Shown here one piece after another: positions 14,495 to 39,346 of a stretch of 49,748 bases of DNA; positions within the stretch are counted from its first letter, which is position 1, and each line of letters begins with the position of its first letter. The position numbers were made by a program, and so were the translations under genes. Under the pieces are notes generated by a model. The model saw nothing but the letters and a program-made list of their open reading frames with translations, ran no database searches and had not been told where the DNA came from. Source of the stretch: Oscillospiraceae bacterium (GTDB lineage Bacteria > Bacillota > Clostridia > Oscillospirales > Ruminococcaceae); NCBI GenBank assembly GCA_021202155.1, contig JAJQDP010000043.1, positions 3,817 through 53,564 on the forward strand. The letters run 5' to 3'.

Positions 14495-14995
14495 ATGAAA
14501 TTATCAAAGATAATGGAGAGATTTGATAAGAGCAAGAGAGCGTTGAAATTAAGAACAAAGATTCAGCGTGGGGGGGTACTGAGTTTTCCGAGAAAAATTG
14601 CTTACAATCGGATTTGTGATTCTTTAAATTGTTTTGTTCCGCCAAAAGTGGAAATAGGGGAGAATATTATTTTTCCTCACGGCTTGACGGGCATATTTAT
14701 ATCTCAGGGTGCAGTAATAGGTGACGATTGCACGATATTTCATCAGGTAACGATTGGGAGTAATACAATTGAAGATTCTAAAGCATATGGTGCTCCAAAA
14801 ATAGGCAATAATGTTTATATAGGTGCTGGAGCCAAGATAGTAGGAAATGTATGTGTGGGCAATAATGTAAGAATTGGCGCAAATGCTGTTGTTACAATAG
14901 ATATACCTGATAATACAACGGTTGTAATGGAGAAACCGAGATTAATTTCTCATGCATATCCCCTTGATAACCACTTTAAGTCATTCAAAGCGTAA
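14495..14995 (+). CDS. Serine acetyltransferase-like O-acetyltransferase, G7 tract in frame (ON)
   Basis: A 166-residue left-handed beta-helix acyltransferase of the CysE/WcaB type, expected to transfer acetyl groups to sugar hydroxyls. Hexapeptide repeats run from 'EIGENIIFPHGLTGIFISQG' through 'AVIGDDCTIFHQVTIGSN' and 'PKIGNNVYIGAGAKIVGNV' to 'VRIGANAVVTIDIP', with the catalytic His in 'FHQVTIG'. The tract at 14570-14576 encodes Gly-Gly-Val in 'IQRGGVLSFP' before the helix domain, in a register different from the other coding tracts. With 7 G the frame is intact; a change of one G would cut the protein after about 27 residues. AGAGG precedes the ATG. Confidence 0.85.
   Translation: MKLSKIMERFDKSKRALKLRTKIQRGGVLSFPRKIAYNRICDSLNCFVPPKVEIGENIIFPHGLTGIFISQGAVIGDDCTIFHQVTIGSNTIEDSKAYGAPKIGNNVYIGAGAKIVGNVCVGNNVRIGANAVVTIDIPDNTTVVMEKPRLISHAYPLDNHFKSFKA
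14570..14576 (+). repeat. Homopolymer G7 in coding sequence (ON)
   Basis: Flanks are GCGT on the left and TACTGAG on the right. The tract begins at codon position 1. Confidence 0.95.
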
Positions 14996-15072
14996 GTAAA
15001 TTTAAGAATACAGAAGAATAACGAGTAATATAGACATAGCAGCTTTATACAAATACAGACAAGAGGAAATAT

Positions 15073-16168
15073 ATGAATATTGAGAAATATGTGATCGGAA
15101 TTAAGTTTGCACTTCAGTCGCTTTTCTCGTCAAAGGTCGATATGACGGCAAATGAGGCGTATGAATACTTGAATACTATAAATCTGGATGTCAAAAGCTC
15201 TTGCTGGACTGCTGATAATGTTGGACGTGTGTGTGTGTGGGGGGTACTGGTTAAGTATTGTTCTTCCTGCATATAACAGTGAAAAATGGGTGGATAAAGC
15301 GATTAAGTCTGTTTTGTCACAAGAAACAGATTACTCATACGAGCTTATTGTCATAGATGATGGTTCAGAAGATTCTACAGGAGAAATTGTAGATAAGTAT
15401 TCGGAGAATCCAGATGTTCACATAGTTCACCAGGAAAACAGGGGATTCTCAGGTGCCAGAAATGCCGGTATAGATATGGCGGCTGGCGAGTATATCATGT
15501 TTCTCGACTCGGATGATATTTTGCTTCCTAGCTCAATTCAGTCTCTTATGAAATGCGCCGTCGAGAATAATGCAGATGTTGTATGCGGCAACTTCATGCG
15601 CAGATATAAAAATGAAGAGTGCAAGCAAGGAACGAACTACTCTTTTGAGAAAGTCAAGCCACTTGGAAAGTTATATGGTCAACCGTGGGGTAAAGTGTAT
15701 AGAAGAAGCTTGTTTGATAATCTGCGCTTCCCGGAAGGCTATTGGTATGAAGATTCCATATTTTCGATGATTGTCTGGCAACAGTGCAAAAGTGCATATA
15801 CAATTCCCGAATATGTCTACGAGTATCTGATGAATGAAGATGGCATTACCGTAAAATCAAGAAAGTCGCCCAAATCTATTGATTCACTGTATGTGATACG
15901 GGCTCTTTTAAAAGACAAAAGCAAGTTCAACTTAAAAATAGAAGATACCGATTATAACGTGTTTCTCAGAACGGCAAAGCTCACGTATCGCAGAACATGC
16001 AGACTTGGTTCTAAGGTTCAAAAGGCAATATTTGTTAATCAATGCGAATTGGCTGACTTATATTTTCCTGATAACAATCCTGATGAAAGCTTAGCCTGCT
16101 TTTCAAAGGCGTTAAAACAACACAATTATAGGGTGTATCTGCAGGAGTGCTTAAGAGACTACCTGTAG
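15073..16168 (+). CDS. Family 2 glycosyltransferase, out of frame at a GT/G6 repeat (OFF)
   Basis: The 5' frame from ATG 15073 (after AGAGGAAA) encodes an N-terminal extension 'MNIEKYVIGIKFALQSLF' to 'NVGRVCVWG', then leaves the transferase frame and stops at 15276. The downstream frame, open from 15188, encodes the GT-A domain: 'LSIVLPAYNSEKWVDKAIKS', 'IVIDDGSEDSTGEI', 'GFSGARNAGIDMAAG' and 'MFLDSDD' (DxD), to a stop at 16166. The break lies at (GT)6 plus GGGGGG (15227-15244). Eight G, five G, or one more GT unit would fuse the halves as 'VWGGYWLSIVLPAYN'. Low-level restart at ATG 15188 or 15218 is possible but lacks a good ribosome site. Confidence 0.8.
15227..15244 (+). repeat. Compound repeat (GT)6-G6 in coding sequence (OFF)
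   Basis: Six GT units followed by six G and then TACTGG. The sequence offers two ways to slip: +2 G or -1 G, or +1 GT unit. Confidence 0.95.
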
Positions 16169-16209
16169 TGAACTCTAAAAGAAATTATAATTGAGGAGAC
16201 AAAAGAAAG

Positions 16210-17457
16210 ATGAGCAATATGAAAATAGCAGTAGCCGGAACCGGCTACGTCGGACTTTCGATAGCGACACTTCTTTCCCAGCACAATAAAGTCACAGCCG
16301 TAGACATCATCCCCGAAAAAGTCGACCTTATAAACCAAAGAAAGTCCCCAATTCAGGACGAGTACATAGAGAAATACTTAGCAGAAAAAGACCTCGACCT
16401 GACCGCAACACTGGACGGAGCATCCGCCTACAAGGACGCTGATTTCGTCATAATCGCTGCCCCGACCAACTACGACAGCAAAAAGAATTTCTTTGACACA
16501 AGCGCAGTTGAGGACGTAATTAAGCTCGTCATTGAAAACAACCCCAACGCCATCATGGTTATCAAGAGTACCATTCCAGTTGGCTACACAGTGAGCATAC
16601 GGGAGAAATTCCATTGTGACAATATCATTTTCAGCCCTGAATTTCTCCGTGAGTCGAAGGCTCTATACGACAATCTCTATCCGTCGAGAATCATCGTCGG
16701 CACCGATGTCAACAATCCAAGACTTGTAGAAGCTGCAAACGCTTTCGCAGGTTTACTCCAAGAAGGTGCAATCAAAGAAAATATCGACACCCTAATCATG
16801 GGCTTCACCGAGGCGGAAGCTGTGAAGCTTTTTGCAAACACCTACTTGGCACTGAGAGTCAGCTACTTCAATGAACTTGATACATATGCCGAGATGAAGG
16901 GTTTGAATACCCAACAAATTATCGAGGGCGTCTGCCTTGATCCGAGAATCGGCTCTCACTACAACAATCCGAGCTTCGGCTATGGTGGATATTGCCTGCC
17001 AAAGGATACGAAACAGCTCCTTGCTAACTACGAAGACGTTCCCGAAAACCTGATTCAGGCGATAGTTGAATCTAACCGCACGAGAAAAGATTTCATTGCA
17101 GACCGTGTTCTGAACATGGCGGGTTACTATGACTACTATAACCGTGGAGATTACAGTGCAGACGAGGAGAAGACTTGCGTCATCGGCGTTTACCGTCTCA
17201 CCATGAAGTCGAACTCAGATAACTTCCGCCAGTCCTCAATTCAAGGTGTCATGAAGCGCATCAAGGCAAAGGGAGCAACTGTGATTATTTATGAGCCGAC
17301 GCTGGAAGATGGGAGCACGTTCTTCGGAAGCGTTGTTGTGAATGACCTCGCAAAGTTCAAGGAGCAGTCACAGGCGATTATTGCCAATAGGTATGATAGT
17401 TGTTTGGATGATGTGAAGGATAAGGTTTATACGAGGGATTTGTACGGGAGAGATTGA
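16210..17457 (+). CDS. ugd: UDP-glucose 6-dehydrogenase
   Basis: A 415-residue nucleotide-sugar dehydrogenase that oxidises UDP-glucose to UDP-glucuronate. The NAD site is '[14 protein letters not shown]' (residues 6-19). '[26 protein letters not shown]' matches the substrate region and '[18 protein letters not shown]' holds the catalytic Cys. This spelling and the short C-terminal domain fit the Ugd group found in capsule loci, rather than the AlgD/UDP-ManNAc group at 20790. ATG 16210 follows GAGGAGAC. The product would feed the epimerase at 13436. Confidence 0.88.
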
Positions 17458-17489
17458 AAGTAAGAAAACAGTAAGGGAGATAGTGCCTT

Positions 17490-19328
17490 ATGTGTGGAAT
17501 AGTAGGATTCACAGGAAAGAATCAAGCGGCACCGATTCTGCTTGATGGGCTTTCCAAGCTTGAATACAGAGGTTACGACTCTGCCGGAATTGCCGTTCGT
17601 GATGGCGATTCTGATGTGGAGATTGTAAAGGCAAAGGGACGTCTGAGCTATCTTTCAGAAAAGACCAATGGCGGTCAGAGCGTTGTCGGTACTTGCGGTA
17701 TCGGACACACCCGCTGGGCTACTCATGGTGAGCCGAGTGAGCTCAATGCCCATCCTCACCGTTCTGATGACGGAAACGTGGTTGCTGTACATAACGGCAT
17801 TATTGAGAACTACCAGGAGCTGAAGGACAAGCTTCTGAGAAAAGGCTATACATTTTATTCGCAGACAGATACAGAAGTCCTGACAAAGCTGGTGGATTAT
17901 TACTATAAGAAATACCAGGTTGGACCGATTGACGCAATCGCCAAGACAATGGTTCGTGTCCGCGGTTCGTATGCTCTCGCAGTAATGTTTAAAGACTACC
18001 CGGACGAAATCTATGTTGCCCGTAAAGACAGCCCGATGATTATAGGCGGTGATGGCGAGGCTACCTACCTTGCTTCTGATGTTCCTGCAATTCTGAAGTA
18101 CACACGCTCGGTCTACTATATCGATAATCTCGAAATGGCACGTCTCACAAAGGGTGCTGTGACATTCTTCAATCTCGATGGAGACGAAGTGGCGAAAGAG
18201 CCTACAGAAATCACTTGGGATGCACAGGCGGCAGAAAAAGGCGGATTCCAGCACTTCATGATGAAGGAAATCCACGAACAGCCGAGAGCCGTTGCAGACA
18301 CACTTCATTCAGTCGAAAACGACGGAAAAATCGACCTGTCTTCAATTGGGCTAAGTGATGACGAGATAAAGAGCATTTCTCAGATATATATCGTAGCTTG
18401 CGGTTCAGCATATCATGTCGGAGTAGTCGCACAGTATGTAATCGAAGACCTCGCAAAGATACCTGTTCGTGTTGAACTGGCTTCTGAGTTCAGATACAGA
18501 GATCCGATGCTTGATGAAAACGGGCTAGTTATTGTAATCAGTCAGTCTGGAGAGACGGCGGACACTCTTGCCGCACTTCGTGAAGCAAAAAGTAGAGGTA
18601 TCAAGACTCTGGCAATCGTCAATGTGGTCGGAAGTTCTATTGCAAGAGAAGCAGACTTCGTGTTCTATACACTTGCTGGACCTGAAATCGCCGTCGCTAC
18701 CACTAAAGCCTACAGCACTCAGCTAATCGCATCGTATCTCCTGGCAATTCAGTTTGGATTCATTCGTGGAGGAATCGATGAGAAGCAGTACGCCGAGTTG
18801 ATTGCGGAGCTTGAATCTCTCCCGCAGAAGATTGAGAAGATTTTAGACGACAAGGAACGCCTGCAGTGGTTCGCCGCAAAGTTTGCAAATGCCAAAGACA
18901 TCTTCTTCATAGGAAGAGGCATCGACTATGCAATCTGTCTGGAAGGCAGTCTCAAGATGAAAGAGATAAGCTACATCCATTCAGAGGCATATGCCGCAGG
19001 CGAACTGAAGCACGGGACAATAAGTTTGATAGAAGACGGCACGCTCGTCATCGGAGTTCTCACACAGCCAAAGCTCTACGAGAAAACAGTCAGCAACATG
19101 GTCGAAGTCAAGAGCCGTGGAGCCTACCTGATGGGACTTGTGAGCAGTGGAAATTACGAGATAGAAGACACAGCCAACTTCGTGGTCTATATTCCCAAGA
19201 CCGACCCTCATTTCGCAACCAGCCTCGCAGTAATCCCGCTTCAACTGATGGGCTACTACGTAAGCGTTGCAAGAGGACTCGATGTGGATAAGCCCAGAAA
19301 CCTGGCGAAGAGCGTGACGGTGGAGTAA
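17490..19328 (+). CDS. glmS: Glutamine-fructose-6-phosphate aminotransferase
   Basis: A 612-residue enzyme of normal length that makes glucosamine-6-phosphate, the entry step to UDP-GlcNAc. The N-terminal Ntn-hydrolase domain starts 'MCGIVGFTG' with the nucleophilic Cys after Met removal, followed by 'GHTRWATHGEPSELNAHPH'. Two SIS sugar-isomerase domains follow ('CGSAYHVGVVAQY', 'ISQSGETADTLAALREAK', 'TKAYSTQLIA', and 'GRGIDYAICLEGSLKMKEISYIHSEAYAAGELKHG'), and the C-terminus is the usual 'PRNLAKSVTVE'. It starts 32 bases after ugd in the same operon. A second, housekeeping copy elsewhere is likely. No glmS ribozyme is visible in the short gap. Confidence 0.95.
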   Translation: MCGIVGFTGKNQAAPILLDGLSKLEYRGYDSAGIAVRDGDSDVEIVKAKGRLSYLSEKTNGGQSVVGTCGIGHTRWATHGEPSELNAHPHRSDDGNVVAVHNGIIENYQELKDKLLRKGYTFYSQTDTEVLTKLVDYYYKKYQVGPIDAIAKTMVRVRGSYALAVMFKDYPDEIYVARKDSPMIIGGDGEATYLASDVPAILKYTRSVYYIDNLEMARLTKGAVTFFNLDGDEVAKEPTEITWDAQAAEKGGFQHFMMKEIHEQPRAVADTLHSVENDGKIDLSSIGLSDDEIKSISQIYIVACGSAYHVGVVAQYVIEDLAKIPVRVELASEFRYRDPMLDENGLVIVISQSGETADTLAALREAKSRGIKTLAIVNVVGSSIAREADFVFYTLAGPEIAVATTKAYSTQLIASYLLAIQFGFIRGGIDEKQYAELIAELESLPQKIEKILDDKERLQWFAAKFANAKDIFFIGRGIDYAICLEGSLKMKEISYIHSEAYAAGELKHGTISLIEDGTLVIGVLTQPKLYEKTVSNMVEVKSRGAYLMGLVSSGNYEIEDTANFVVYIPKTDPHFATSLAVIPLQLMGYYVSVARGLDVDKPRNLAKSVTVE

Positions 19329-19387
19329 AAAATATTGAACATAGCTACACACTCTTAGATAGAATAGATAAGGTAGGAAGTTCAGAG

Positions 19388-20698
19388 ATGAACATAATTT
19401 TACTATCCGGTGGCTCTGGCAAACGCCTTTGGCCGCTATCAAACGACATAAGAAGCAAACAGTTCATCAAACTGTTCAGAAATAATAACGGCGACTACGA
19501 GTCGATGGTGCAGAGAGTTTATCGCCAGATTACCGAGGTTAACCCGTTGGCAAAAGTGACGATTGCCACAAGCAAGTCGCAGGTAAGTGCTATACACAAC
19601 CAGCTGGGAGACAAAGTTTCCATCTGCGTTGAACCGTGCAGGCGAGACACATTCCCTGCTATTGCACTCGCAGCTACATATCTCCACGATGAACTTGGTG
19701 TTGGATTAGATGAGGCAGTAGCCGTTTGTCCTGTTGACCCGTATGTCGATAATACATACTACAAGGCAGTAAATAAACTTGAGGCTCTGGTATCACAAGG
19801 GACAGAAAATCTGACCCTTATGGGTATTGAACCGACTGTACCAAGTAGAAAGTATGGGTACATCATTCCAGAAAGCAAGGATTACATCAGTAAGGTAAAA
19901 GAGTTTAAGGAAAAACCGGATAAAGAAACTGCTAAACAGTATATAAGTCAAGGCGCATTGTGGAATGCCGGAGTGTTTGCATTCAAGCTTGGATACTTGG
20001 TTGATAAGGCTCACAGTATGATTGACTTTGTAGATTATCGTGATTTGTATTCCAAATATGAAACTCTGACGAAGATTTCTTTTGATTACGCTGTAGTCGA
20101 GAAAGAGCCGTCTATTCAGGTTATGCGTTATGCAGGTGAATGGAAGGATGTCGGCAGTTGGAACATGATGGCTGAGGTCATGGCAGATAAAGTCAAGGGC
20201 AACGTCACACTTGATGAAGCTTGCGAAAACGTAAATGTTGTCAATGAGCTGGACATTCCTATCCTCGTCATGGGTTGTAAAGATATGGTTGTAGCCGCAA
20301 GCACGGATGGTATTCTCGTTTCAGATAAAGAACGTAGCGGTCAGATGAAACCGTATGTGGAAGCCATCAGCACCGATGTCCATTTTGCTGAGAAATCATA
20401 TGGTACATATACGGTGATTGATGCACAGCCGGGAGCTCTGACGATAAAGAATACAATGAAAGCCAGTCATCAGATGAGCTATCACTACCATGAGCGCAAG
20501 GATGAAGTGTGGACAATAGTTTCCGGAACCGGAAAGGTAATCGTCGATGATATGGAACGGGCAGTTCATCCGGGCGACGTTGTGACAATAACTGCTGGTT
20601 GCAAACACATGATTATTGCAGAAACTGACCTTAGCTTGATAGAGGTGCAGGTCGGAAATGAGCTGACTTTAAAAGACAAGATAATCTGCAATAGGTGA
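19388..20698 (+). CDS. manC: Mannose-1-phosphate guanylyltransferase (ManC/AlgA-like, with cupin domain)
   Basis: A 436-residue bifunctional-type enzyme. The nucleotidyltransferase domain begins 'MNIILLSGGSGKRLWPLSND' (pyrophosphorylase signature) and has 'FKEKPDKETA' and 'LWNAGVFAFKL'. The C-terminal cupin 'MSYHYHERKDEVWTIVSGTG' and 'VHPGDVVTITAGCKHMI' is the phosphomannose-isomerase-like domain. It would make GDP-mannose for the dehydrogenase at 20790 and for mannosyl transfer. The ATG follows AGGAAG. Confidence 0.9.
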   Translation: MNIILLSGGSGKRLWPLSNDIRSKQFIKLFRNNNGDYESMVQRVYRQITEVNPLAKVTIATSKSQVSAIHNQLGDKVSICVEPCRRDTFPAIALAATYLHDELGVGLDEAVAVCPVDPYVDNTYYKAVNKLEALVSQGTENLTLMGIEPTVPSRKYGYIIPESKDYISKVKEFKEKPDKETAKQYISQGALWNAGVFAFKLGYLVDKAHSMIDFVDYRDLYSKYETLTKISFDYAVVEKEPSIQVMRYAGEWKDVGSWNMMAEVMADKVKGNVTLDEACENVNVVNELDIPILVMGCKDMVVAASTDGILVSDKERSGQMKPYVEAISTDVHFAEKSYGTYTVIDAQPGALTIKNTMKASHQMSYHYHERKDEVWTIVSGTGKVIVDDMERAVHPGDVVTITAGCKHMIIAETDLSLIEVQVGNELTLKDKIICNR

Positions 20699-22174: not shown

Positions 22175-22707
22175 ATGACAAACTATAAAGACGACTATTA
22201 CAGAATAACAGGAGAAGAGTTTTCTTTAGTGGGGGGGTAATACGTATAATTTTATCTCACGAATTAATGTATTTATTCTCCCATAGAATGGTAATTAAAG
22301 GAAGGCTTGTGATTTTCTTTAAAGCTGTCAGAGAACATCTAAGAAAAAAATATGGTTTGGAAATCGATAGTCCTCATATTGGCAGAGGATTATACTTAGG
22401 ACACCCTTACAACATTACAGTTTCTCCTTATGCGATAATTGGCGATAATTGCAATTTGCATAAGGGAGTTACTGTAGGGCGAGAAAACAGGGGAGAAAGA
22501 AAGGGTGCCCCTGTTATAGGAGATAAGGTGTGGATAGGAATTAATGCAACTGTTGTTGGCAATATAAAAATCGGAAATGATGTAATGATTGCTCCGAATT
22601 CGTTTGTGAACTGTGATATTCCGGATCATTCAATCGTTATTGGAAATTCGTGTTGCATACACAGAAAAGACAATGCAACTGAGGGCTACATTAACCGAGT
22701 TGTTTAG
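22175..22707 (+). CDS. Serine acetyltransferase-like O-acetyltransferase, out of frame at G7 (OFF)
   Basis: ATG 22175 (after GAAGGTG) opens 'MTNYKDDYYRITGEEFSLVGG' and stops at TAA 22238-22240, immediately after a 7-G tract. With 8 G the frame runs on as 'VGGVIRIILSHELMYLFSHR' into the acetyltransferase that otherwise has only an internal start at 22267. That part has 'KKYGLEIDSPHIGRGLYLGH', 'IGDNCNLHKGVTVGRENRG' with the catalytic His, 'PVIGDKVWIGINATVVGNI' and a normal C-terminus. The 'YYRITG' start is typical of this family, so the two pieces are one gene of about 178 codons. Function: probable O-acetylation of the polysaccharide when ON. Confidence 0.82.
22231..22237 (+). repeat. Homopolymer G7 in coding sequence (OFF)
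   Basis: Flanks are TTTAGT on the left and TAATAC on the right. The OFF frame reads GTG GGG GGG TAA, so the stop is built into the element. Confidence 0.95.
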
Positions 22708-22738: not shown

Positions 22739-23172
22739 ATGAGTGGTATTATGCGTTTATATCGAGTTGAAAGATGGCTTTACCTACATAAATTAACTCC
22801 ATTGGCTATGCTAATAAAGGTTTCAATCCGTTGTGTGGGGGGGTAATACCTTACCAGGCAGACATAGGAAAAGGAACATTTATCACATATCATGGGTTAG
22901 GCGTTATAATTAATAAGAGAGCTGTTATAGGTGAGAATTGTAGGATTAGACAGCATGTAACAATTGCAGCCAATGATGAAGGAGTACCTGTAATAGGAAA
23001 CAATGTCCAGATAGGAGCAGGAGCTGTATTAATCGGCAAAATAGTAATAGGTGACAATGTAAAGATTGGCGCAAACGCTGTCGTGCTTCACGATTTGCCA
23101 AGTGACTGTACTGCCGTTGGTATGCCTGCTAAACCTGTGAAATTTAATTATGCAGTTGAGTCGAGCGACTGA
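22739..23172 (+). CDS. Serine acetyltransferase-like O-acetyltransferase, out of frame at G7 (OFF)
   Basis: ATG 22739 (after AGAAGGG) opens 'MSGIMRLYRVERWLYLHKLT' to 'VSIRCVGG' and stops at TAA 22844-22846 directly after a 7-G tract. With 8 G the frame continues 'CVGGVIPYQADIGKGTFITYHGLG', a standard start of the hexapeptide domain, through 'VIGENCRIRQHVTIAAND' (catalytic His) and 'PVIGNNVQIGAGAVLIGKI' to 'AVGMPAKPVKF'. Full length would be about 144 residues, normal for the WcaB-like short acetyltransferases. It differs clearly from its neighbour at 22175, so it is not a recent duplicate. Confidence 0.82.
22837..22843 (+). repeat. Homopolymer G7 in coding sequence (OFF)
   Basis: Flanks are TTGTGT on the left and TAATAC on the right; these six right-flank bases equal those at 22238 and 25401. 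OFF frame: GTG GGG GGG TAA. Confidence 0.95.
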
Positions 23173-23190
23173 CTCAAGGAGAAACGAAAG

Positions 23191-25071
23191 ATGGCGGATA
23201 TTGCTTGGCTAATGCGGCGTCTGAAAGCGATGAGTTTACCGGAAGTTGCATGGCGGTTATCTCAAAAACAAATACAGAAAAACGAAGAAAAGCGATTCCG
23301 CTCTAATAAATGCTTAGTTGTAGATGAACTGTTTGACAAGAAGTTAGAGGGCTTGAATTTAGATGCAGATAAAATGCACCTGAATCTAGATAACCGAGAC
23401 TATTCCTTATCAGCCTCAATTCCACTTCTCGGCGGCTATGATTATGAGGAGTACAAAAAAGCTTGGTCGGCAGGGTTTCAGACGGAAAATGAATGGTCAG
23501 ACACTTTCTCCTATTCTCTGGAGTACAAACAACGCGATGACATTGGTGATGCCCGTACTAACTGGGAACTGAACAGGCATTTTCAGTTTGCTCTGCTTGC
23601 CAAAGATTATTACGCATCAGGCGACAAAAAGTATTTAGATGAGCTTATGATGCTCTTTGAAGACTGGAATCAGAAAAATCCTTTTCTCTGGGGCATTTCA
23701 TGGACGAGCGTCATGGAGATAGCAATTCGCTGTAGCAACTGGTGCTATACATATTGTTTCCTTGTAAAGTCGAATGATGTGCCAAAAGAAATCCTTATGC
23801 AGTTGCAGACCGGAATACTGAATATGACATCATATATTGAGAACCATTATTCACGGTATTCCTCAGCAAATAACCACCTGATTGTTGAGGCGTATGCAAT
23901 AGGTCAGAGTGGGGCATTGTTCGGAAATCAGAAGTGGGTTGACCTGGCTGTTTCTATTCTGACAAGGGAGTTTCCTCTCCAGAACTATTCGGACGGAATC
24001 AACAAAGAGCTTTCTCTTCATTATCAGTCTTTCTATATGGAAGCTGTTGGGCTTTTGATGCGCCTGCTTCTGAAGAATGATATAAGTGTGCCGGAGAGCT
24101 GGTATACATGGCTTTCTGAGATGTCAGAATATCTTGCTACTTGCGTTGGGAAACATGGAGAAGTAATCGAGTTCGGCGATAACGACGATGGAAAAATTCT
24201 CGACCTATGTGGCGGATTCAGCCATTATCAGTATGTGCTTGGCTTGATGAGCTGTTTGCTTGATACTGAGTATACTGATGTAAGTAAGTGTTGTGAAAAT
24301 CTGAACTGGCTGTTCACTGCGGAAGAAAGAGCAGAAGCCTGCAAAAAGGATATGTACACTCCAAAGAAATGCACCTGTTATAAAGAAGGTGGCAACACAA
24401 TTCTTCGTAGTGAAGATGAGAGGATTCTGATAGGAATCGACCATGCTGCACTTGGATTCGGAAGTATCGCCGCTCATGGTCATGCGGATGCGCTGAGTTT
24501 CCAGATGTATGTTGACGGACAGCCGATTTTCGTAGACCCAGGTACGTACATATACCATTGCGACATAGAGAATAGAAATGCTTTTCGCCGAACCGAGAAT
24601 CACAACACAGTTTGTGTAGACGGAAAAGATCAGTCAGAAATGCTCGGAGCTTTTCTGTGGGGGAAGAGAGCGGAGTGTGAGCTTCTTCAGTTTGATGAAA
24701 GTGATGACAAGGTTACACTTGAAGCCAGCCACAATGGATATTCGCCAGCTATACATACAAGATCCTACACATTTAATTATAAAGATGAGCTGATTATTTC
24801 TGATGAATTAACAGCTGAGGCTGATATGGTTGCAAACTTCATCTTAGCCCCTGATGTAAGCGTTACTTTGTCAGAGAACGAAGCTTGCATTTCTACAATA
24901 GATATTACTGTTGTGATGAAGATTTGTTGTGATAAAGAATGTGACGTGGGGATAATTGATAAGCCATATTCGAGGAAATATGGGGTATACGAAAAAACGA
25001 ACGGCATTTGTGTATCGGCAAGAACAAATAAATCGAAAGTAATAATTAAAATAGAGGAGAGAATAGTATGA
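23191..25071 (+). CDS. Heparinase II/III family protein 1 (putative polysaccharide lyase)
   Basis: A 626-residue protein. The N-terminal alpha/alpha-barrel domain starts 'MADIAWLMRRLKAMSLPEVA' and contains 'NWELNRHFQFALLAKDYYASG', 'ENHYSRYSSANNHLIVEAYA' and 'VIEFGDNDDGKIL', all characteristic. The C-terminal beta domain has 'AAHGHADALSFQMYVDGQPI', 'VDPGTYIYH' and 'NAFRRTENHNTVCVDG', the heparinase II/III hallmark. Relatives cleave uronic-acid polymers such as heparin or alginate by beta-elimination. No signal peptide is visible, so it may act inside the cell or during assembly. In a biosynthetic operon it may set chain length or recycle the product. Confidence 0.88.
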   Translation: MADIAWLMRRLKAMSLPEVAWRLSQKQIQKNEEKRFRSNKCLVVDELFDKKLEGLNLDADKMHLNLDNRDYSLSASIPLLGGYDYEEYKKAWSAGFQTENEWSDTFSYSLEYKQRDDIGDARTNWELNRHFQFALLAKDYYASGDKKYLDELMMLFEDWNQKNPFLWGISWTSVMEIAIRCSNWCYTYCFLVKSNDVPKEILMQLQTGILNMTSYIENHYSRYSSANNHLIVEAYAIGQSGALFGNQKWVDLAVSILTREFPLQNYSDGINKELSLHYQSFYMEAVGLLMRLLLKNDISVPESWYTWLSEMSEYLATCVGKHGEVIEFGDNDDGKILDLCGGFSHYQYVLGLMSCLLDTEYTDVSKCCENLNWLFTAEERAEACKKDMYTPKKCTCYKEGGNTILRSEDERILIGIDHAALGFGSIAAHGHADALSFQMYVDGQPIFVDPGTYIYHCDIENRNAFRRTENHNTVCVDGKDQSEMLGAFLWGKRAECELLQFDESDDKVTLEASHNGYSPAIHTRSYTFNYKDELIISDELTAEADMVANFILAPDVSVTLSENEACISTIDITVVMKICCDKECDVGIIDKPYSRKYGVYEKTNGICVSARTNKSKVIIKIEERIV

Positions 25072-26407
25072 ATACTAATAGTCTTAAGGTAATATATGAG
25101 CGGTTGCCAAAAGGTATAAAGCGGATGTTTTCTGCAGTTTTTATTCGACTAATGGTGTACAATAAAGAATTTGTTCAGACTACTAAGGAGTTGGATGCAT
25201 TTGAAAAAATGAGTCCGTCAGAACAAGAAGCAAAACAGTTTCAGCTATTAAAAGAAACGTTGACTTATGCATACCAAAATGTACCGTTCTACAAAGAGCA
25301 ATTTGATTCTACTGGCTTTGATCCTGAAAAGATGAAAGCGTTGGATGATATAAAAAGACTACCCCTTCTGACAAAGGAAAGCGTAATTAGTGTGGGGGGG
25401 TAATACATTCAAACGAGAATATTTCTTATTATGAATCTATTACCGGCGGAAGTTCAGGTCACGCTTTAAAAGTGATGTTGGATCAAAGTTCAATTTATAA
25501 AGAGCGGGCTTTCATATGTCATTACTTATCAAAGTATGGCTATGATGCAAAAAAATCAAGGACGTTAGCTCTGTGGGGACATCAGAAGGGTTCAGATTAC
25601 TATTATTCTCCGTTGAAAAATGAGATTGTAATTTCACCATTTCTGTTGCTTAATGAGAGTGGGTTTGAAAGAGCTTGGAAGGCAATTCAGGAGTTTTCGC
25701 CTACATGCATTGCGGGGTATCCGTCTGCAATATATATGCTCGCACAAATTGTAGAACGTAAAAAACTAAATCATCATTTTGAATTAGTATATTACTATGC
25801 AGAAAATTGTAGTGACGAGGTAAGAGCATATATTCATGATGTATTTAAATGCAAAGTGATTGGTTATTATGGTCATACAGAGCGTGCAGTATTTGCTGAA
25901 GAATATAAAGATCAGGGAGGGTACAGATTCAATAAATTATATGGATATACCGAATATATTCCGACAGAAGTAGATGGAGAGTACCAAATAGTATGTACGG
26001 GATTTATTAGTCGAAAAATGCCTTTGATTCGTTATGTTACGGATGATGTTGTTACAATTAATGAAAATGGATTTGCTCAGATTATGGGGCATAAGTTTTC
26101 TGAGGTATGTTTGATTTCTAAGTCAGGTGCAAGGATATTTAAGGGTGCGATGACAATGCATTCGGAATCGTTTAAAAAAGTAAAGCAGTATCAGTTTGTT
26201 CAAGATGAACCAGGGAAGGCTTTCCTGGATATTGTTCCGAGCGAAAAAATCGAAGATGAAGATATGGGTGCTATCTCTAAGTATTTATCTGATAGATGTG
26301 AAGGAGAATTGGATGTCACTGTTCGAGTGGTAGATCAAATCCAATTGACGAGTAGAGGCAAATACAATTGGGCAGTTGTCAACGTTGGAAAGTCAACTAA
26401 TTCATGA
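25068..26407 (+). CDS. CapK/PaaK-like AMP-forming ligase, out of frame at G7 (OFF)
   Basis: ATG 25068 overlaps the preceding stop. The first frame encodes the family's N-terminus ('LLKETLTYAYQNVPFYKEQF', 'LDDIKRLPLLTKESVISVGG') and stops at TAA 25401-25403 right after 7 G. With 8 G it continues 'VGGVIHSNENISYYESITGG' into 'ITGGSSGHALKV' (the phosphate-binding loop), 'TLALWGHQKGSD', 'IAGYPSAIYMLAQI' and 'VIGYYGHTERAVFAEE' to a normal C-terminus. Full length would be about 446 residues. CapK-like proteins activate an acid as an adenylate for transfer; the adjacent alanine racemase suggests an amino-acid substituent, which is inference. The tract sits just before the ATP-binding loop, so the OFF product is inactive. 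Confidence 0.82.
25394..25400 (+). repeat. Homopolymer G7 in coding sequence (OFF)
   Basis: Flanks are TTAGTGT on the left and TAATACATT on the right. OFF frame: GTG GGG GGG TAA. Confidence 0.95.
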
Positions 26408-29862: not shown

Positions 29863-31794
29863 ATGCTGAGTAAAGTAAAAAAGCTGATAGGGTATAAGGA
29901 GATTCTAATAAGTACTGAGCCGACATACTGGATACATTATGTGCGTCATTCTTATTTTCCGAAGAAAAATCGAATCAATGAATATCAGACGACGCCCGAT
30001 AATCTGAGGCTATGTTTTCTCGATGTATCAAGAAACGAGTTTAACGAGGTATTTTACAATAGTAGACTCTCAGCAAATATTATTGAAAGAGCGAACAGGA
30101 TTTGCGATGGATATGCAGTAGTGTTTGACGTGGAAACGTCAGAAATTAAAGGAAAGTGGAGCGAAGATCCAAAGACAGGTTACAACTGGTTATCTATTTA
30201 TTACAAAGACGTAAGAGGACTATGTCCCCAGGGGACAGTAGAAAATCATAATGATATAAAGTATGCATGGGAGTTAGGATGCCTTCATTTCCTGGTAACG
30301 CTTGCTCAAGCTTATGCAATTACAAATGAGAGCAAGTATAAGGAAAATTTCTTTGAACTATTAGATGACTGGGTGGAGCAAAATCCGGTTGGGTACGGAG
30401 TAAATTGGTGCTGTACAATAGACGTGGCACTTCGGGCAATTAACATAATAGTGGCGGCATCAATTTTTGCGGCCTTCTGCGGCGATTTTGAGGAGGAGTT
30501 CCAACCGTATTCAAAGTTGCTGTACACGCACATGCTTTTTATATATGACAATTTGGAATATGGCTTTGTGAGAGAAAATCATTTTGTTGCCGACATTGTG
30601 GGCTTAAAGGTGCTTTCACAGATATTCCCACAGGACTCCGTCGCTCGCAAGATGTATAACTTTTCAAAAAAACAATTCCAAAAGGAAGTCTTATTTCAAG
30701 TTTTACCGGATGGCGTGGAGCATGAGGCAAGCACAGCTTATCATGGACTTGTACTTGAACTTTTCGTGATTGGATTGGCGACAGACGGAAATTTAATGCA
30801 AACTATAAAGCCGCAATGCATTGCTCGCTTAAATCAGATGGTGTCCTTTTCTGAAAAATTGTTGAGTTTTCACCATTTTCCGATAATCGGAGACAATGAC
30901 AGTGAGAGAGTGCTCGATTTGAATGGCACAGGCACATTCAGAAAAGAAGTCGTTGATTTTGCAAATTATGTGTTAGGAAATTCAGCAGATTCAATCAATG
31001 AGTATTCGTTTTTATGTGCCGGTACCATCGGGAAAGAGAAAGAAGTGGGACAAACACGTCGGAAGCCAATTACCTTGACTGATTATGCGGAAGGCGGATA
31101 TGTTTATTGCAAAAATGACAATTTTAGGCTGTTAATTCATGCGGGATCTATCGGCAGACGTGGGCGAGGAGGTCACGGTCATAATGACCAGACATCGTTT
31201 GTCCTTGATATTGGCGTTGATTCATTTATAATTGACCCGGGAAGCTGTGTATATGAGCGTGATTTAGAGAAAAGACATAAGTATAGAAGTACTAAAATGC
31301 ACAATTGTGTTGCCTTGGGTGACATTGAGCAAAATAAAATCAAGATAGAGACGCCGTTTAAGATGGACAACGATACAAAATGCCAGCATACCTCGAGGGT
31401 ATTCGAGTCACAGGTAGAAGTAGAATGTGTCCACTTTGGATATGCGAAATCAGCAGGTTGCAACATTACAAGAAAGTTTATAGTTTCAGATAATCTTTCT
31501 GTCCGTGATTCTATTGAGGGAAGTTATAGAGGCGATTTTTCGGTGAACTATGTATTCGCCGACACCGTGGAACTGCGACAAATCTGCTCAAATGCTATAG
31601 AGGCGCATACTGGAAATCAGACTGTTGAGATAATATTCGAAGGAATAGATGGTCTGGAAATATACAGGGGGACGTTTTCGGAATCATATGGCAAAGAACA
31701 GCCGACATGTTGCTTGCTGTTAAAGGGACATAAAGATAGTGAACATGCAGAAGTGATAACGAATATCAAAATTGTAACGGGTGAGATAAGATGA
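29863..31794 (+). CDS. Heparinase II/III family protein 2 (putative polysaccharide lyase)
   Basis: A 643-residue protein. N-terminal helical domain: 'KYAWELGCLHFLVTLAQAYA', 'GVNWCCTIDVALRAINIIVA', 'VRENHFVADIVGLKVLSQIF' and 'HFPIIGDNDSERVLDLNG'. C-terminal beta domain: 'GRGGHGHNDQTSFVLDIG' and 'IDPGSCVYERD' then 'HKYRSTKMHNCVALGD', the same hallmark as the protein at 23191. The two are distant relatives, not recent duplicates. There is no signal peptide. The start of the next gene overlaps its stop (ATGA). Confidence 0.88.
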   Translation: MLSKVKKLIGYKEILISTEPTYWIHYVRHSYFPKKNRINEYQTTPDNLRLCFLDVSRNEFNEVFYNSRLSANIIERANRICDGYAVVFDVETSEIKGKWSEDPKTGYNWLSIYYKDVRGLCPQGTVENHNDIKYAWELGCLHFLVTLAQAYAITNESKYKENFFELLDDWVEQNPVGYGVNWCCTIDVALRAINIIVAASIFAAFCGDFEEEFQPYSKLLYTHMLFIYDNLEYGFVRENHFVADIVGLKVLSQIFPQDSVARKMYNFSKKQFQKEVLFQVLPDGVEHEASTAYHGLVLELFVIGLATDGNLMQTIKPQCIARLNQMVSFSEKLLSFHHFPIIGDNDSERVLDLNGTGTFRKEVVDFANYVLGNSADSINEYSFLCAGTIGKEKEVGQTRRKPITLTDYAEGGYVYCKNDNFRLLIHAGSIGRRGRGGHGHNDQTSFVLDIGVDSFIIDPGSCVYERDLEKRHKYRSTKMHNCVALGDIEQNKIKIETPFKMDNDTKCQHTSRVFESQVEVECVHFGYAKSAGCNITRKFIVSDNLSVRDSIEGSYRGDFSVNYVFADTVELRQICSNAIEAHTGNQTVEIIFEGIDGLEIYRGTFSESYGKEQPTCCLLLKGHKDSEHAEVITNIKIVTGEIR

Positions 31795-34081: not shown

Positions 34082-34100
34082 TGAAGGTGCAAGTGTTATT

Positions 34101-35294
34101 ATGAGGTTATCTCTTTCCACGAGAACATTATATATGATTTCTCTCGCAGCATATACGGGAATATCGATGGCTCATTCGTCTATACCATATGTGAAAACCG
34201 TGTTCTGGTTTTTGGTTATAGGAGTCACACTTTTTGATGTGTTGAATAAGGGGATAGATAGGATAGCTCTCAAAAATCTGGTTACGATTGCGGCATGGTA
34301 TTTATTATTCTTTATTTTTGTATACTTGTCGAATAACTGGGCGTATGTAGATAGGACATCTGATTCCACTGCATTTTATCAGATGGGACGTGCCTTGGCG
34401 GTTTCGTTGACGATGTGTTATTATGTACGCTCTGAAGAGGATATTGAGGATTTGCTCAAATCTGTTATGGTGGGAATGATATATTTCAGTGTTATTTTCC
34501 TGTTTACATCTCCGGTATCTACATGGGGAACAACCGAAATGGGTGGTATAACCGGACAGTTTCGCAATTTTACTGGCTATGCATGTGCGATGTTTGCGCT
34601 GATTTGTCTGTACTTTTACCAAAAATATGGACAGCGAAAGCATATTTTTGCTTTAGCCTGGTTTGCAGCTATTACTTTACTTACCGGGTCAAGAGGCGCA
34701 CTTTTATCACTTGTAGTGTTGTTCTGCCTTTATTCGCTTTTAAGCGGTAGTATAACCAAAACACTGCGAAACATTATAGTGATAGCACTCGTTCTCTGCC
34801 TTGGCTTCTACTTTATATTGAATAATGAGTTCTTTTACAATATACTTGGGGAAAGGCTTTTGGAAATGGTAGGTATCCTTGACCAGGATCAGAGTACAAT
34901 TGATAGAAATCTGTATAGACTCGTAGGCATAGAAATGTTTATACAAAAGCCTCTGCTTGGATGGGGATATGATAACTTTGCATATTATATTAATCGCTTT
35001 ACAGAATATAATAAGGAAGTATATAGCCATTGCAATTACACCGAAATATTAGCTGATTACGGTCTTGTCGGCTTTGTGATATTTTACAGGAAGTATATTC
35101 CAACGATTATGGCGGAGTGGAAAAAGCATTCAACAAACGCTATGTCAAAACTGTTTTTTGTGTTGATGATAAGATATATTATCTTTGAGTATTCCTCCAT
35201 ATCCTACTATCATTACGTTTATATCATTATTCTATCGTTGGCATTTTTACATACAAACTTACTACATCTCAAAGGTGAAGAGACTAATGAATAA
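34101..35294 (+). CDS. O-antigen ligase/polymerase-like membrane protein (Wzy-type)
   Basis: A 397-residue polytopic membrane protein with about ten hydrophobic segments. It has 'TLLTGSRGALLSLVV' and 'KPLLGWGYDNF' followed by a short extracellular loop with 'SHCNYTEILADYGLVG', the pattern of Wzy/WaaL family proteins that join repeat units. With the flippase next to it, this points to a Wzx/Wzy-dependent pathway. It starts 19 bases after the previous stop. Confidence 0.82.
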   Translation: MRLSLSTRTLYMISLAAYTGISMAHSSIPYVKTVFWFLVIGVTLFDVLNKGIDRIALKNLVTIAAWYLLFFIFVYLSNNWAYVDRTSDSTAFYQMGRALAVSLTMCYYVRSEEDIEDLLKSVMVGMIYFSVIFLFTSPVSTWGTTEMGGITGQFRNFTGYACAMFALICLYFYQKYGQRKHIFALAWFAAITLLTGSRGALLSLVVLFCLYSLLSGSITKTLRNIIVIALVLCLGFYFILNNEFFYNILGERLLEMVGILDQDQSTIDRNLYRLVGIEMFIQKPLLGWGYDNFAYYINRFTEYNKEVYSHCNYTEILADYGLVGFVIFYRKYIPTIMAEWKKHSTNAMSKLFFVLMIRYIIFEYSSISYYHYVYIIILSLAFLHTNLLHLKGEETNE

Positions 35295-35341
35295 CAGCCA
35301 TATGTATCGATTTGACAGATAAATAGGAAGGAAGATAATAG

Positions 35342-36862
35342 TTGAGCAAAGAATACAGTAGATCAAAAAAGCTTTTTTTGAATTCCGGTTCTTCATTAGT
35401 GTTTCAGATTACCACTGTTATATGTGGGTTTATCTTACCGCGTATAATTTTAAATACTTATGGTTCCGAAGTAAATGGACTGGTGAACTCTATTACCCAG
35501 TTTCTTTCAATCATCGGATTTTTGGAGTTTGGTGTAGGTGCTGTCATTCAATCTTCGCTATATAAGCCGATAGCCGAGAATGATTTTGTGGAAATAAGCA
35601 AAATAGTCCACTCAGGGCAAAAATTCTTCAGGAAAATTGCGACAATATTAGTAGTATATGTCGCTGTTCTCGTGGTTTTCTATCCGTTTTTAGTGAATCA
35701 AAGCTTCGGATGGGTTTACACTGCAACGATGATTGTTGCTCTTAGTGTCAGTTCATTTGCTCAGTACTATTTTGGTGTCGTAGACAGACTGTTCTTAACT
35801 GCAAACCAAAGGGGATATATACAGTATAATACGCAAACAATCACTCTAATCATCAACACTATAGCATGTTGCATTTTGATTAAATATGGTGCGTCTATCC
35901 ATATGGTCAAGCTGACGACATCAATTATTTACCTATTCAGACCGTTGGTTTTGAGGCTTTACGTAAATAAGCACTACCAAATTGATAGAAAGATAGAGTA
36001 CACTGGAGAACCAATTAAGCAAAAGTGGAATGGTCTCGCACAACATGTTTCAGCGGTGGTACTGGATGGAACGGACAATATAGTCTTGACTATATTTTCT
36101 ACGCTCAGCAATGTTTCTATATACTCTGTGTATCACATGGTTGTATATAACGTAAAGAACTTGTTTACATCATCCACGCAGGGCGTGCATGCTCTTTTGG
36201 GGGAATTATGGGCTAAAAAGGAAACAAAGAAGCTTACTGAATTCTTCTCGTTATTTGAATGGGCTTTACATACAGCTACGGTTTTTATCTTCTGTTGCTG
36301 TGGGGTTCTGATTATTCCATTTGTTGAAGTTTACACGAGCGGAGTAACTGATGTCAACTACATTCAACCTGCATTCGCATATATTATTACTGCGGCAAAT
36401 GCATGTCATTGTTTACGAATTCCATATAACAGTATGATTTTGGCAACGGGTCACTACAAGCAAACTCAGAAAAATTATATAATTTCCGCAAGCATCAATA
36501 TAGTGATTTCTGTTGTTGCTGTTATTAATTTTGGACTGGTAGGAGTTGCAATAGGAACACTTGTCGCTATGCTTTATCAGACAGTGTGGATGGCATGGTA
36601 TGTATCGAAAAATCTTCTTGAAAGACCATTGCACATTTTTATAAAGCATATCTTAGTTGATGTTGTATGTGTTGCTTGCAGTTTCTTTGCTGTCTCTTGG
36701 ATTGAAATGAGTTCAGTTTCTTACTTGTCGTGGATAATAATGGCGGTAGAGGTTGCAGTTATATGTTTTGCGGTAATAGCTGTTCTCAATATTATTTTAT
36801 ACAGGAAGATATGTTGTGATGGCTTACGTTTAGTAAAGGATAGGCTAAAAAGAAACAAATAG
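35342..36862 (+). CDS. Polysaccharide flippase (Wzx/MATE-type), TTG start
   Basis: A 506-residue membrane protein with about 14 hydrophobic segments: 'NSGSSLVFQITTVICGFILP', 'NTYGSEVNGLVNSITQFLSI' and the later paired helices are typical of the lipid-linked oligosaccharide exporters. The start is TTG 35342, preceded by GGAAGGAAG. It would move the lipid-linked repeat unit across the membrane. Confidence 0.87.
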   Translation: MSKEYSRSKKLFLNSGSSLVFQITTVICGFILPRIILNTYGSEVNGLVNSITQFLSIIGFLEFGVGAVIQSSLYKPIAENDFVEISKIVHSGQKFFRKIATILVVYVAVLVVFYPFLVNQSFGWVYTATMIVALSVSSFAQYYFGVVDRLFLTANQRGYIQYNTQTITLIINTIACCILIKYGASIHMVKLTTSIIYLFRPLVLRLYVNKHYQIDRKIEYTGEPIKQKWNGLAQHVSAVVLDGTDNIVLTIFSTLSNVSIYSVYHMVVYNVKNLFTSSTQGVHALLGELWAKKETKKLTEFFSLFEWALHTATVFIFCCCGVLIIPFVEVYTSGVTDVNYIQPAFAYIITAANACHCLRIPYNSMILATGHYKQTQKNYIISASINIVISVVAVINFGLVGVAIGTLVAMLYQTVWMAWYVSKNLLERPLHIFIKHILVDVVCVACSFFAVSWIEMSSVSYLSWIIMAVEVAVICFAVIAVLNIILYRKICCDGLRLVKDRLKRNK

Positions 36863-36935
36863 AGCGAGTAGGAGTGAATTCTTTTCAACGAGTGAATTTG
36901 CGAGGGCGAAATATCAGGATGCGGTGGATGTACTC

Positions 36936-37961
36936 ATGGACAAGACTAAGGAATTGGAAAATTGTAATTCAGTAAGAGCGTTCTTAATGCTTTGCATTGT
37001 TCTCTATCATAGCATGGCATTGTATAGTGTGGGGGGGTGGAGCCCTTTTTCTCCTGCTGAAGACGCTCCTTATCTCGGTATAATTGCAGAATGGCTTAAT
37101 AGTTTTCATATTTATGCATTCACATTAGTTTCCGGTTATGTGTTCTACTACATGAGAATTGAGAAAGGCAGGTATGCTGATTATCTTCCGTTTGTGGCGA
37201 ATAAGGCTAAAAGACTACTAGTGCCATATGTATTTATGTGTACAATATGGGTTGCACCGGTTTATTGTTACTTTTACGGAACGGCGGGAGTTGTTTCAAA
37301 ATTCGTTCTTGGTGTTAATCCGGGTCAGCTTTGGTATCTACTGATGCTGTTTTGGGTGTTCGTGCTGTTTTGGACTATTTCAAAGTTTGCGGACAAGCAT
37401 CCTTTTGTGGGAACTGTAATTGTTTGCTTGTTTTATTTCGCCGGTTGGTTGCTATTTAAGGTAGATGTTATCCCCAATCTATATATGTTCAAAACCGCAT
37501 TGATGTATGTGTTGTTTTTCTACATAGGATTTTTATTGAGAAAATACAAGTGGGACTGGCTATATCGCATTCCTTCTGTCATATACCTGGCTGTTGACTT
37601 GGCATTGTTTGCCACAAATCAATTGATAAGTGATTATTCCGGACTATTCTGGTCCGCTATGAGATTCGGCGTAAGTGCTTTACTGCACATCGTCGGTGCC
37701 GTTATGGCGTTTGTAATCCTGCAAAGAATTTCGGAACACTGCGGCAGAAGTAAAGCTATAAGTTTTTTCTCAAAGCACAGCATGGCAATTTATTTGGTGC
37801 ATCAGCAACTGATTTACTTTTCAATCGGCTGGTTTAATGGCGTAATTCCTCCATTGGCATTGGCACTTGTAAATTTTGCCTTTTCACTGGGTATCAGTTC
37901 GCTATTTGCTTGTTTGATGTCTAAAACGAGAGTTACGAGATTCTTAATTGGAAGTAAATAG
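36936..37961 (+). CDS. Acyltransferase family 3 membrane protein, G7 tract in frame (ON)
   Basis: A membrane O-acyltransferase of about 341 residues with some ten hydrophobic segments. The N-terminal motif 'NSVRAFLMLCIVLYHSMALY' holds the catalytic His, and 'AFTLVSGYVFYYM' follows. The tract at 37031-37037 encodes Val-Gly-Gly in 'LYSVGGWSPFSP', in the first loop just after the catalytic segment, and is in frame with 7 G. A change of one G would remove nearly all membrane helices. Start ATG 36936 follows GGTGG; GTG 36924 is the alternative. It would acylate a sugar from the outside or the inner leaflet. Confidence 0.83.
   Translation: MDKTKELENCNSVRAFLMLCIVLYHSMALYSVGGWSPFSPAEDAPYLGIIAEWLNSFHIYAFTLVSGYVFYYMRIEKGRYADYLPFVANKAKRLLVPYVFMCTIWVAPVYCYFYGTAGVVSKFVLGVNPGQLWYLLMLFWVFVLFWTISKFADKHPFVGTVIVCLFYFAGWLLFKVDVIPNLYMFKTALMYVLFFYIGFLLRKYKWDWLYRIPSVIYLAVDLALFATNQLISDYSGLFWSAMRFGVSALLHIVGAVMAFVILQRISEHCGRSKAISFFSKHSMAIYLVHQQLIYFSIGWFNGVIPPLALALVNFAFSLGISSLFACLMSKTRVTRFLIGSK
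37031..37037 (+). repeat. Homopolymer G7 in coding sequence (ON)
   Basis: Flanks are TATAGTGT on the left and TGGAGCC on the right. This is the only tract not followed by TA. Confidence 0.95.
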
Positions 37962-38015
37962 TAAAGGCATTAAATCAGCTCTACCATATTTTGAACTACA
38001 GAAAGGAAGAAAATA

Positions 38016-39346
38016 ATGAATCAGTTTTTTATCAAATGTTACAAAAAGCTTGATTATCTGCATCTAATGGATTGGATGCCGGATAAGATGTACTTATCAT
38101 TAAAATTCAGAGTGATGATGGGGAAGAAGCTTAATCTGAAGAATCCACAAACCTTCAACGAAAAACTGCAGTGGCTGAAATTATACGACCGCAAACCAAT
38201 ATACACTACTATGGTCGATAAATATGAAGCCAAGAAGTATGTTGCAAGTATCATTGGAGAAGAGTACATAATTCCGACACTTGGGGTATGGGATAGTCCC
38301 GATGAAATAGATTTTGATTCATTGCCAGATCAATTTGTACTGAAGTGTAATCATAACTCCGGTCGTGGCATGTGTATTTGTACTGACAAAAGCAAATTGG
38401 ACATCGAAGCAGTTAAGAGAGGACTTCAGAAAGGATTAAATGAAAACTACTATATCACTAACAGAGAGTGGCCATATAAGGATGTACCCAGAAAGGTAAT
38501 TGCTGAGAAGTATATGGTCGATGGAGCAGATACAGAACTAAAGGATTATAAGTTTATGTGCTTTGGCGGCAGGGCTTATTGTTCTTTTGTTTGCTCTGAT
38601 AGGTTTTCAGAAGACGGTTTAAAAGTTACCTTCTATGATCGTGAGTGGAAAAAGATGCCGTTTATTCGCCATTACCCATCCTCTGTGGAAGATATTGAAA
38701 TGCCAAAGCAATACTATGCTATGATGGATTTCGCAGAGAAACTGTCGAAAGATATACCTTTCGTGCGTGTTGATTTTTACGAGGTTGAGGGTCATTTGTA
38801 CTTTGGAGAATTAACATTTTATCCGGGGAGTGGGATGGAGGAATTTGAACCGGAAGAATGGGATTATAAATTAGGAGATTGGGTTAAGTTGCCTGGTTGT
38901 GTGGGGGGGTAGTAGTTGATATTGCGGACGATACTTTTATTTGGATTCACAAATGCACCGATTCAAAAGAATCTAATGAATTAAAAGACTATAAGCTCTT
39001 CTGCTTCAATGGCGAGCCGAGACTTACCCTTGTATGTAGCGATAGATTCAGTGAGCAGGGATTACACGAGGATTTCTTTGATAATGATTGGACTCATCAA
39101 AATATAGCAAGACCAAATACGCCTAATTCTGTTATTCCAATAGAAAAACCATATTGTTTTGATGAAATGCTTAATCTGTCAAGAAAACTATCGAAGGACA
39201 TTCCGTTTGCTCGCATTGATTTTTACGAAATTCAGAAATGTCCTTATTTCGGTGAAATTACATTCTTCCCAGCATCTGGAATGAATGGTTTTGTGCCGGA
39301 TGATATAGATGTAGAACTAGGGAGAAAAATATCGTTGTCGATATGA
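38016..39346 (+). CDS. TupA-like ATP-grasp ligase with frame-separated second half-domain at G7
   Basis: The frame from ATG 38016 encodes a complete TupA-like ATP-grasp protein: 'NPQTFNEKLQWLKLYDRKPI', 'DQFVLKCNHNSGRGMCIC', 'ELKDYKFMCFGG', 'IPFVRVDFYEVEGHLYFGEL' and 'YKLGDWVKLPG', then 'CVGG' and TAG 38910-38912 directly after 7 G. With 8 G it would continue 149 residues as 'VGGVVVDIADDTFIWIHKC' into a second C-terminal ATP-grasp half ('ELKDYKLFCFNGEP', 'IPFARIDFYEIQKCPYFGEI') ending at 39346. The second half is diverged and incomplete, so this is an old duplication. The short form should already be functional. The family forms amide or similar bonds on glycans. Confidence 0.75.
38903..38909 (+). 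repeat. Homopolymer G7 in coding sequence (short form)
   Basis: Flanks are GGTTGTGT on the left and TAGTAG on the right. In the present register the frame reads GTG GGG GGG TAG. Confidence 0.95.

Follow-up and report, generated by a model that had tools for sequence, protein, structure and literature searches.

The polysaccharide locus of an uncultured Oscillospiraceae bacterium (assembly GCA_021202155.1, contig JAJQDP010000043.1) contains short, stereotyped runs of G, several of them inside genes for glycan-modifying enzymes, which raises the question whether these runs are switches and how they might act. The window analyzed here is the whole stretch of 49,748 nt around the locus (positions 3,817 to 53,564 of the contig, 2.2% of its genome), and the element under study is G[TC]-G(6-9)-TA, written GYG6TA or GYG7TA according to the length of the run. 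Our analyses make it very probable that a clade of uncultured Oscillospiraceae carries this element as a poly-G phase-variation switch that acts in four ways, in coding frames, promoter spacers, structured leaders and at gene ends. The idea of phase variation, put forward in a preliminary description of the locus, is well supported by frames broken at the tract, by differences in tract length among homologues and by typical target genes. An excess of homopolymer runs, a placement that alters the reading frame or promoter spacing and length differences above those of control runs, as expected for poly-G phase variation, were all found.

Tracts within genes

All seven tracts that had been described in the locus are present where they had been placed, and two that had been missed, at 2681 and 40737, fit the set (Table 1). 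The plus strand of the window holds seven runs of at least seven G (six G7 and one G8), compared to 1.3 expected under a first-order Markov model, and runs of six or more C, of which 1.2 were expected, are absent. The assigned gene families agree with Pfam (hexapeptide acetyltransferases, GT2, AMP-binding for the CapK-like ligase, Acyl_transf_3 and TupA). That the tracts lie inside reading frames holds in part. With each side of the tract translated separately, 14570 and 37031 are read through, whereas 15239, 22231, 22837 and 25394 mark the exact point of a frame change. The tract at 38903 closes a complete TupA frame (profile positions 1-240 of 241), and a partial TupA (116-240) comes next in another frame. 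In the related genome G026 (L120, 2844-4618), TupA is likewise followed by partial copies in a row, with two G tracts separating them. The tract at 37031 is followed by TG instead of the common TA, and its counterpart in G026 is identical (G7, open). Because it is open, has this flank and is the same in G026, we left it out of the set as probably not a switch, and since it is probably constant, the suggested total of up to 128 surface forms is not warranted.

At 19 of 32 sites in the 5' part or middle of coding regions, the best frame before the tract is not the one after it, and at the other 13 the two coincide, by a mechanical rule and with the provisos that some sites are mutually homologous and that one (S138) may be a leader. 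Frames are broken even in the middle of domains: a single Pfam domain is split by the tract in two acyltransferase 3 genes, with one half matched on either side and each half in its own frame (profile 2-160 and 190-326; 3-139 and 156-325). In the CapK/PaaK-like ligase of the window, both halves match one homologue family, by eye without net insertion. Glycosyltransferases, acyl- and acetyltransferases and a DNA methylase are among the targets. The methylase gene, in G026 (N6_N4_Mtase; L122, 2650-4590), carries a G7 tract in frame, which would be compatible with a phase-variable methylome. A longer open frame on the opposite strand was seen at 2 of 48 coding sites; antisense placements were otherwise not searched.

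Across the site, homologues of the CapK and GT2 genes that lack a tract differ little in residue spacing, by eye, the GT2 homologues having a linker of similar length at the position of tract 15239, and acetyltransferase homologues commonly carry WGGVIP where the tract lies. Insertion of a mobile sequence as source of the tracts in CapK and GT2 was rejected on account of the nearly conserved spacing. Since tract-free homologues keep the spacing or WGGVIP at the site, it is more likely that the tracts in the CapK, GT2 and acetyltransferase genes grew in place than that they came by insertion. In five acetyltransferase homologues (P0245, P0280, P0282, P0283 and P0313), the start lies only a few residues from GGVIP, which would fit proteins read from broken alleles, and similar switches may exist elsewhere.

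Distribution in the genome and in the clade

GYG7TA occurs 25 times in the genome to which the window belongs, and together with GYG6TA there are 31 sites. Five of the 25 lie in the window, which is thus enriched, but the other 20 lie outside it. The picture of a locus-wide set that marks mainly decoration genes is not supported as originally put, as the element is spread over the genome and the clade and its largest class consists of leaders, many of which precede large ORFs that begin like signal peptides. Across 31 genomes of the genus, we counted 130 GYG7TA matches (in 18 genomes) versus 2 matches to the reversed control pattern, and 116 of the 130 fall into one clade of 11 species. These are the motif-rich genomes, defined by at least four GYG7TA matches, and they form a single clade with 100/100 support in a MutS tree that covers all of the 31 except G021 and G037, hence 29 genomes. 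Summed over the clade, motif and reversed control stand at 60:77 for GYG5TA, 76:0 for GYG6TA and 116:0 for GYG7TA, which is a sharp threshold between a background level at G5 and the element at G6. Elsewhere in the genus, GYG5TA exceeds the reversed control in several genomes (47 versus 12 in G003). In a sample of the order comprising 394 genomes, the 388 from outside the genus contain 0 to 3 GYG7TA matches each, save G279 with five, and spread of the element through the order was rejected on this basis. Four of the five matches in G279, which belongs to another genus, lie in a long CRISPR array with a repeat containing CCCCCGCGTGGGGGGTATC (L381, 8300-16500). The CapK gene had no match in the named genomes in which it was sought.

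Flanks are as characteristic of the element as its length. TA directly follows 174 of 190 runs of at least six G and only 4-5% of the G3 to G5 runs in the same 1.07 Mb of DNA, a figure that is biased because these stretches were chosen for holding such sites. In the window and the pieces of its own genome, selected mainly by G7 with any flank, TA follows 24 of 26 G7, 5 of 5 G8, 5 of 8 G6 and 5 of 113 G5 runs; this count omits C17 (flank CA) and C25 (flank TA), whose matches were inspected in 3-kb loci, and the GC-rich contig end C32 with runs up to G10. The most frequent tract length is 7, and among the 190 runs, C32 not counted, none reaches 10. Sites within genes tend towards the longer consensus GYGT-G7-TACT. 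For further analysis, we compiled 165 sites, to which most GYG7TA matches of 11 genomes belong but the GYG6TA and longer matches only in part; as runs with other flanks were counted and then dropped, the filter itself fixes the preceding C or T and the following TA in this table. A mechanical rule assigned 72 sites to leaders, 32 to the 5' part or middle of coding regions, 22 to promoters, 16 to coding 3' ends and 23 to other positions, and 17 further sites were added to these.

Length differences between species

Length changes at the same positions, a check that the preliminary description had proposed for strains and metagenomes, were found between related species. In alignments between species, length differs in 18 of 43 pairs of G/C runs with conserved flanks, compared to 13 of 151 A/T runs of 6-7 (Fisher p 1.7e-6, a generous value because families and genomes recur among the pairs, some of which may be paralogous). 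Among seven orthologous coding pairs, 37031 not included, two differ in length, and each consists of one open and one broken frame: the acetyltransferase at 22837, whose orthologue in G026 is open, and a GT2-hexapeptide gene in G002 and G009. At 22231, the tract in G026 has equal length and the frame is broken there too. The number of G thus varies between species and presumably also within populations, most likely through slipped-strand mispairing during replication, as may be expected from the class of tract. Loss of mismatch repair was rejected as cause because MutS1 scores above the family cut-off in 30 of the 31 genomes of the genus, the exception (G021, 84% complete) being motif-poor.

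Several points weigh against phase variation by such slippage. With a mode of 7, the tracts are short compared to classical poly-G switches, whose tracts are longer, and plain slippage has no need of flanks that are conserved across unrelated contexts. The 43 pairs are not independent, they include the 37031 pair, and some of the leaders may be paralogues. Length is equal in 5 of the 7 coding pairs and in 25 of the 43 pairs overall, and the change in G number is seen between species only.

Proposed modes of action

In the first mode, a change in tract length would shift the frame of glycan-modifying genes, and the broken frames described above would then have an effect on the protein. The second mode would act on promoters through the distance between the -35 and -10 elements, with an effect on transcription that general knowledge of sigma-70 promoters leads one to expect. 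Between TTGAC and the hexamer most like a -10 element, the spacing is 14 or 15 at 18 of the 22 promoter sites and 16, 17, 19 and 20 at one site each. The promoter at 2681 illustrates this across three species, with G6 and a spacer of 14 in the window, G7 and 15 in G026, and G8 and 16 in G029, the last matched by eye.

In the third mode, a change in the tract may affect a folded leader that includes a terminator-like hairpin and precedes the genes of large, probably surface-exposed proteins. The leaders inspected as examples are built alike. A normally spaced promoter and a 5' hairpin precede the tract, which is followed first by a hairpin often closed by CCC and then by one of the CCTCC...GGAGG type with a T run; after these, a ribosome-binding site leads into a large ORF that often begins like MAKKLLCVLLSVLMV. 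In the leader at 40737, the 5' hairpin, G8 and the next hairpin are followed by a CCTCC...GGAGG hairpin with a T run (40805-40836 and on), and a second CCTCC...GGAGG contains the ribosome-binding site. Of the 72 leaders, 46 have a hairpin of at least 5 bp directly 3' of the tract (24 distinct stems), versus a mean of 4.8 after shuffling; the other classes gave 5 of 22 promoters (shuffled mean 4.7), 9 of 32 sites in the 5' part or middle of coding regions (3.8), 5 of 16 at coding 3' ends (2.0) and 13 of 23 other sites (3.1). No Rfam family reached its gathering score in the window and 13 further loci. In predicted folds of 23 natural leaders, the summed pairing of the tract with CCTCC exceeds 1 in three (S100, S122 and S9) and is at most 0.36 in the other 20; as only these three show it, antiterminator pairing between tract and CCTCC is a guess. 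Among 32 hand-picked sites of several classes, 28 lie upstream of ORFs with, by eye, signal-peptide- or membrane-like starts. Four of eight proteins encoded downstream of tracts contain BspA-like LRR, InlB B-repeat or List-Bact repeats, and four had no match.

At gene ends, in the fourth mode, tract length would decide whether translation stops early or runs on into a tail that overlaps the start of the next gene. For 33 sites with an upstream frame of at least 100 codons, 7 of the 99 tail frames (about ten of them of zero length) end in Ala-Ala. By chance 0.56 would be expected, as derived from 5 of 881 ORFs of the same DNA, at least two of which are themselves junction sites. GCNGC stands immediately 5' of ATGA in six of the seven Ala-Ala tails, and the ATG opens 69 to 380 codons in five of these six and only two codons in S149. 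A generic start context was rejected as cause of the Ala-Ala tails, since GCNGC precedes the ATG in only 5 of 456 starts. From this arrangement, we infer that the junctions may toggle by translational coupling, perhaps together with a degradation tag. A junction tract in G025 is flanked by tandem cytidylyltransferase genes that are 57% identical over 136 residues (L215, 2742-3675).

Alternative explanations

The flanks together with the threshold between G5 and G6 suggest that something recognizes the element. A factor dedicated to the clade might recognize G[TC]-G(6-9)-TA and change or read the tract, in place of passive slippage, an explanation that we regard as unlikely, although the absence of GYG6TA and GYG7TA from the reversed control, with GYG5TA at background, and the preference for TA after long runs, in the biased sample as well as in the window and the pieces of its own genome, speak for it. 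On the basis of co-occurrence only, the candidate is a serine recombinase operon of three genes next to the locus (R1-R2-R3; Table 1). Relatives of R2 (at least 70% identity) and R3 (at least 65%) are present in 10 of the 11 motif-rich genomes and in none of the 20 others of the genus; within these ten, own genome included, identity is 70-82% for R2 and 65-77% for R3, and the order sample yielded only one further recombinase relative at E 1e-100, with 49% identity. The order R1-R2-R3 is kept in the eight other species examined (R1 is in two pieces in G028, and the stretch from G026 holds R2-R3), and ugd lies in the same stretch as the operon in 4 of 10 cases (the window, L119, L460 and L461). 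As the motif-rich genomes form one clade, the co-occurrence represents a single event and counts only once. Moreover, G006 has the motif and differences in tract length but no close recombinase, possibly due to an assembly gap, 5 of the 20 other genomes contain weaker relatives of R2 (36-44%), and the link comes from co-occurrence of sequences and not from biochemistry. We are similarly doubtful of the broader notion that one length-switching element, recognized in trans, operates in coding frames, promoter spacers, terminator leaders and gene junctions, with its length set by an enzyme and not by slippage alone. If true, the read-through tail at junctions, which ends in Ala-Ala and overlaps the next start, could lower the level of one protein and raise that of the next.

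A regulatory motif of fixed length, bound by a protein or an RNA, would account for the narrow length range, the conserved flanks and the structured leaders in which the tract adjoins a hairpin, with the length differences reflecting ordinary divergence. The many sites at which genes are broken at the tract and the higher frequency of length changes in G tracts than in A/T runs make this explanation quite improbable. Programmed ribosomal frameshifting on the G run, which could be slippery where broken frames surround it, might rescue the broken genes, but the same element is also present in leaders and promoter spacers, the two other frames each serve as the long downstream frame at some sites, and tract length varies among homologues, so that we give frameshifting very little credence. 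Errors of assembly or homopolymer sequencing come to mind as the genomes are draft metagenome assemblies; they are a highly improbable source of the tracts, which are found at the same places in different species and have conserved flanks not expected of error-prone runs, while A/T runs of 6-7 are more stable. Phase variation by changes in tract length hence appears to be the best description of the element.

Relation to known systems

Phase variation by slipped-strand mispairing in poly-G/C tracts is known from Campylobacter, Neisseria and Helicobacter. The clade resembles these systems, which are treated in a recent review (PMC11868660), in having G tracts at multiple loci that act as frame and promoter-spacing switches. 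Surface glycans, surface proteins and one DNA methylase are further common ground. In contrast, the conserved G[TC]...TA flanks, lengths of 6-9, the leader-RNA and gene-junction classes and the occurrence in uncultured Oscillospiraceae set the present element apart. Invertible promoters (invertons) are found in Clostridioides difficile and Bacteroides. Surface and regulatory targets in anaerobes, and here the serine recombinases beside the locus, are reminiscent of invertons as treated in that review (PMC11868660), whereas the change observed here is one of tract length. Inverted repeats near the three regions tested are imperfect pairs only (73-86%, 14-26 nt), one of which (14 nt, 86%) brackets 2681. 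In transcription attenuation, a leader with a promoter, alternative helices and a terminator-like hairpin precedes the regulated gene. The leaders described here have the same parts in front of the gene, but the candidate switch is a genetic change in length and not a ligand, and they had no match in Rfam.

Homopolymeric tracts have been proposed as general regulators, with Clostridia among the sampled groups, and tracts in coding genes as regulatory device are shared with our findings, whereas the flanks and this clade are not addressed in the consulted portion of that work (PMC2831843). Neither this element nor any poly-G phase variation in Oscillospiraceae came up in the parts consulted of open-licence articles in PMC. 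Why genomes with multi-locus phase variation seem restricted to pathogens was named a major open question in a 2025 review (PMC11868660, section 8). With 31 GYG6TA and GYG7TA sites in the genome of the window, the clade appears to be a further multi-locus example, from among uncultured Oscillospiraceae, whatever the pathogen status of its members. The principle of poly-G phase variation is known, and the conserved flanks, the lengths of 6-9 and the leader and junction classes constitute a new variant of it. If confirmed, many surface forms would be possible from one cell line, the leaders would form a class of switches directed at transcription termination, and whether a bacterium controls homopolymer length by a dedicated factor could be tested directly by way of the conserved flanks.

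Features of the window

Table 1. Coordinates of tracts, tract-bearing genes and neighboring features in the window.
Feature	Position	Strand	Tract and frame
Promoter-like TTGACA (2667) and TATAAT (2687)	2667..2692	+	G6 2681-2686 in the 14-bp spacer
Operon of three serine recombinases (R1-R2-R3)	6558-11710		
Hexapeptide acetyltransferase	14495..14995	+	G7 14570-14576, frame open
Family 2 glycosyltransferase (GT2)	15073..16168	+	G6 15239-15244, frame upstream of tract differs from GT2 frame
Hexapeptide acetyltransferase	22175..22707	+	G7 22231-22237, frame broken at tract
Hexapeptide acetyltransferase	22739..23172	+	G7 22837-22843, frame broken
CapK/PaaK-like ligase	25068..26407	+	G7 25394-25400, frame broken
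Acyltransferase 3	36924..37961	+	G7 37031-37037, then TG, open
TupA-like ATP-grasp	38016..39346	+	G7 38903-38909, complete TupA ends at tract, then partial TupA in other frame
Promoter-like TTGACA-17-TATAAT (40655, 40678) and structured leader	40655..40888	+	G8 40737-40744
ORF of 1911 aa, signal-peptide-like start (by eye)	40889..46624	+	

Searches of Pfam and NCBIfam at E 0.001 returned nothing for the ORF of 1911 aa. Two heparinase II/III-like genes lie within the polysaccharide locus, at 23191-25071 and 29863-31794.

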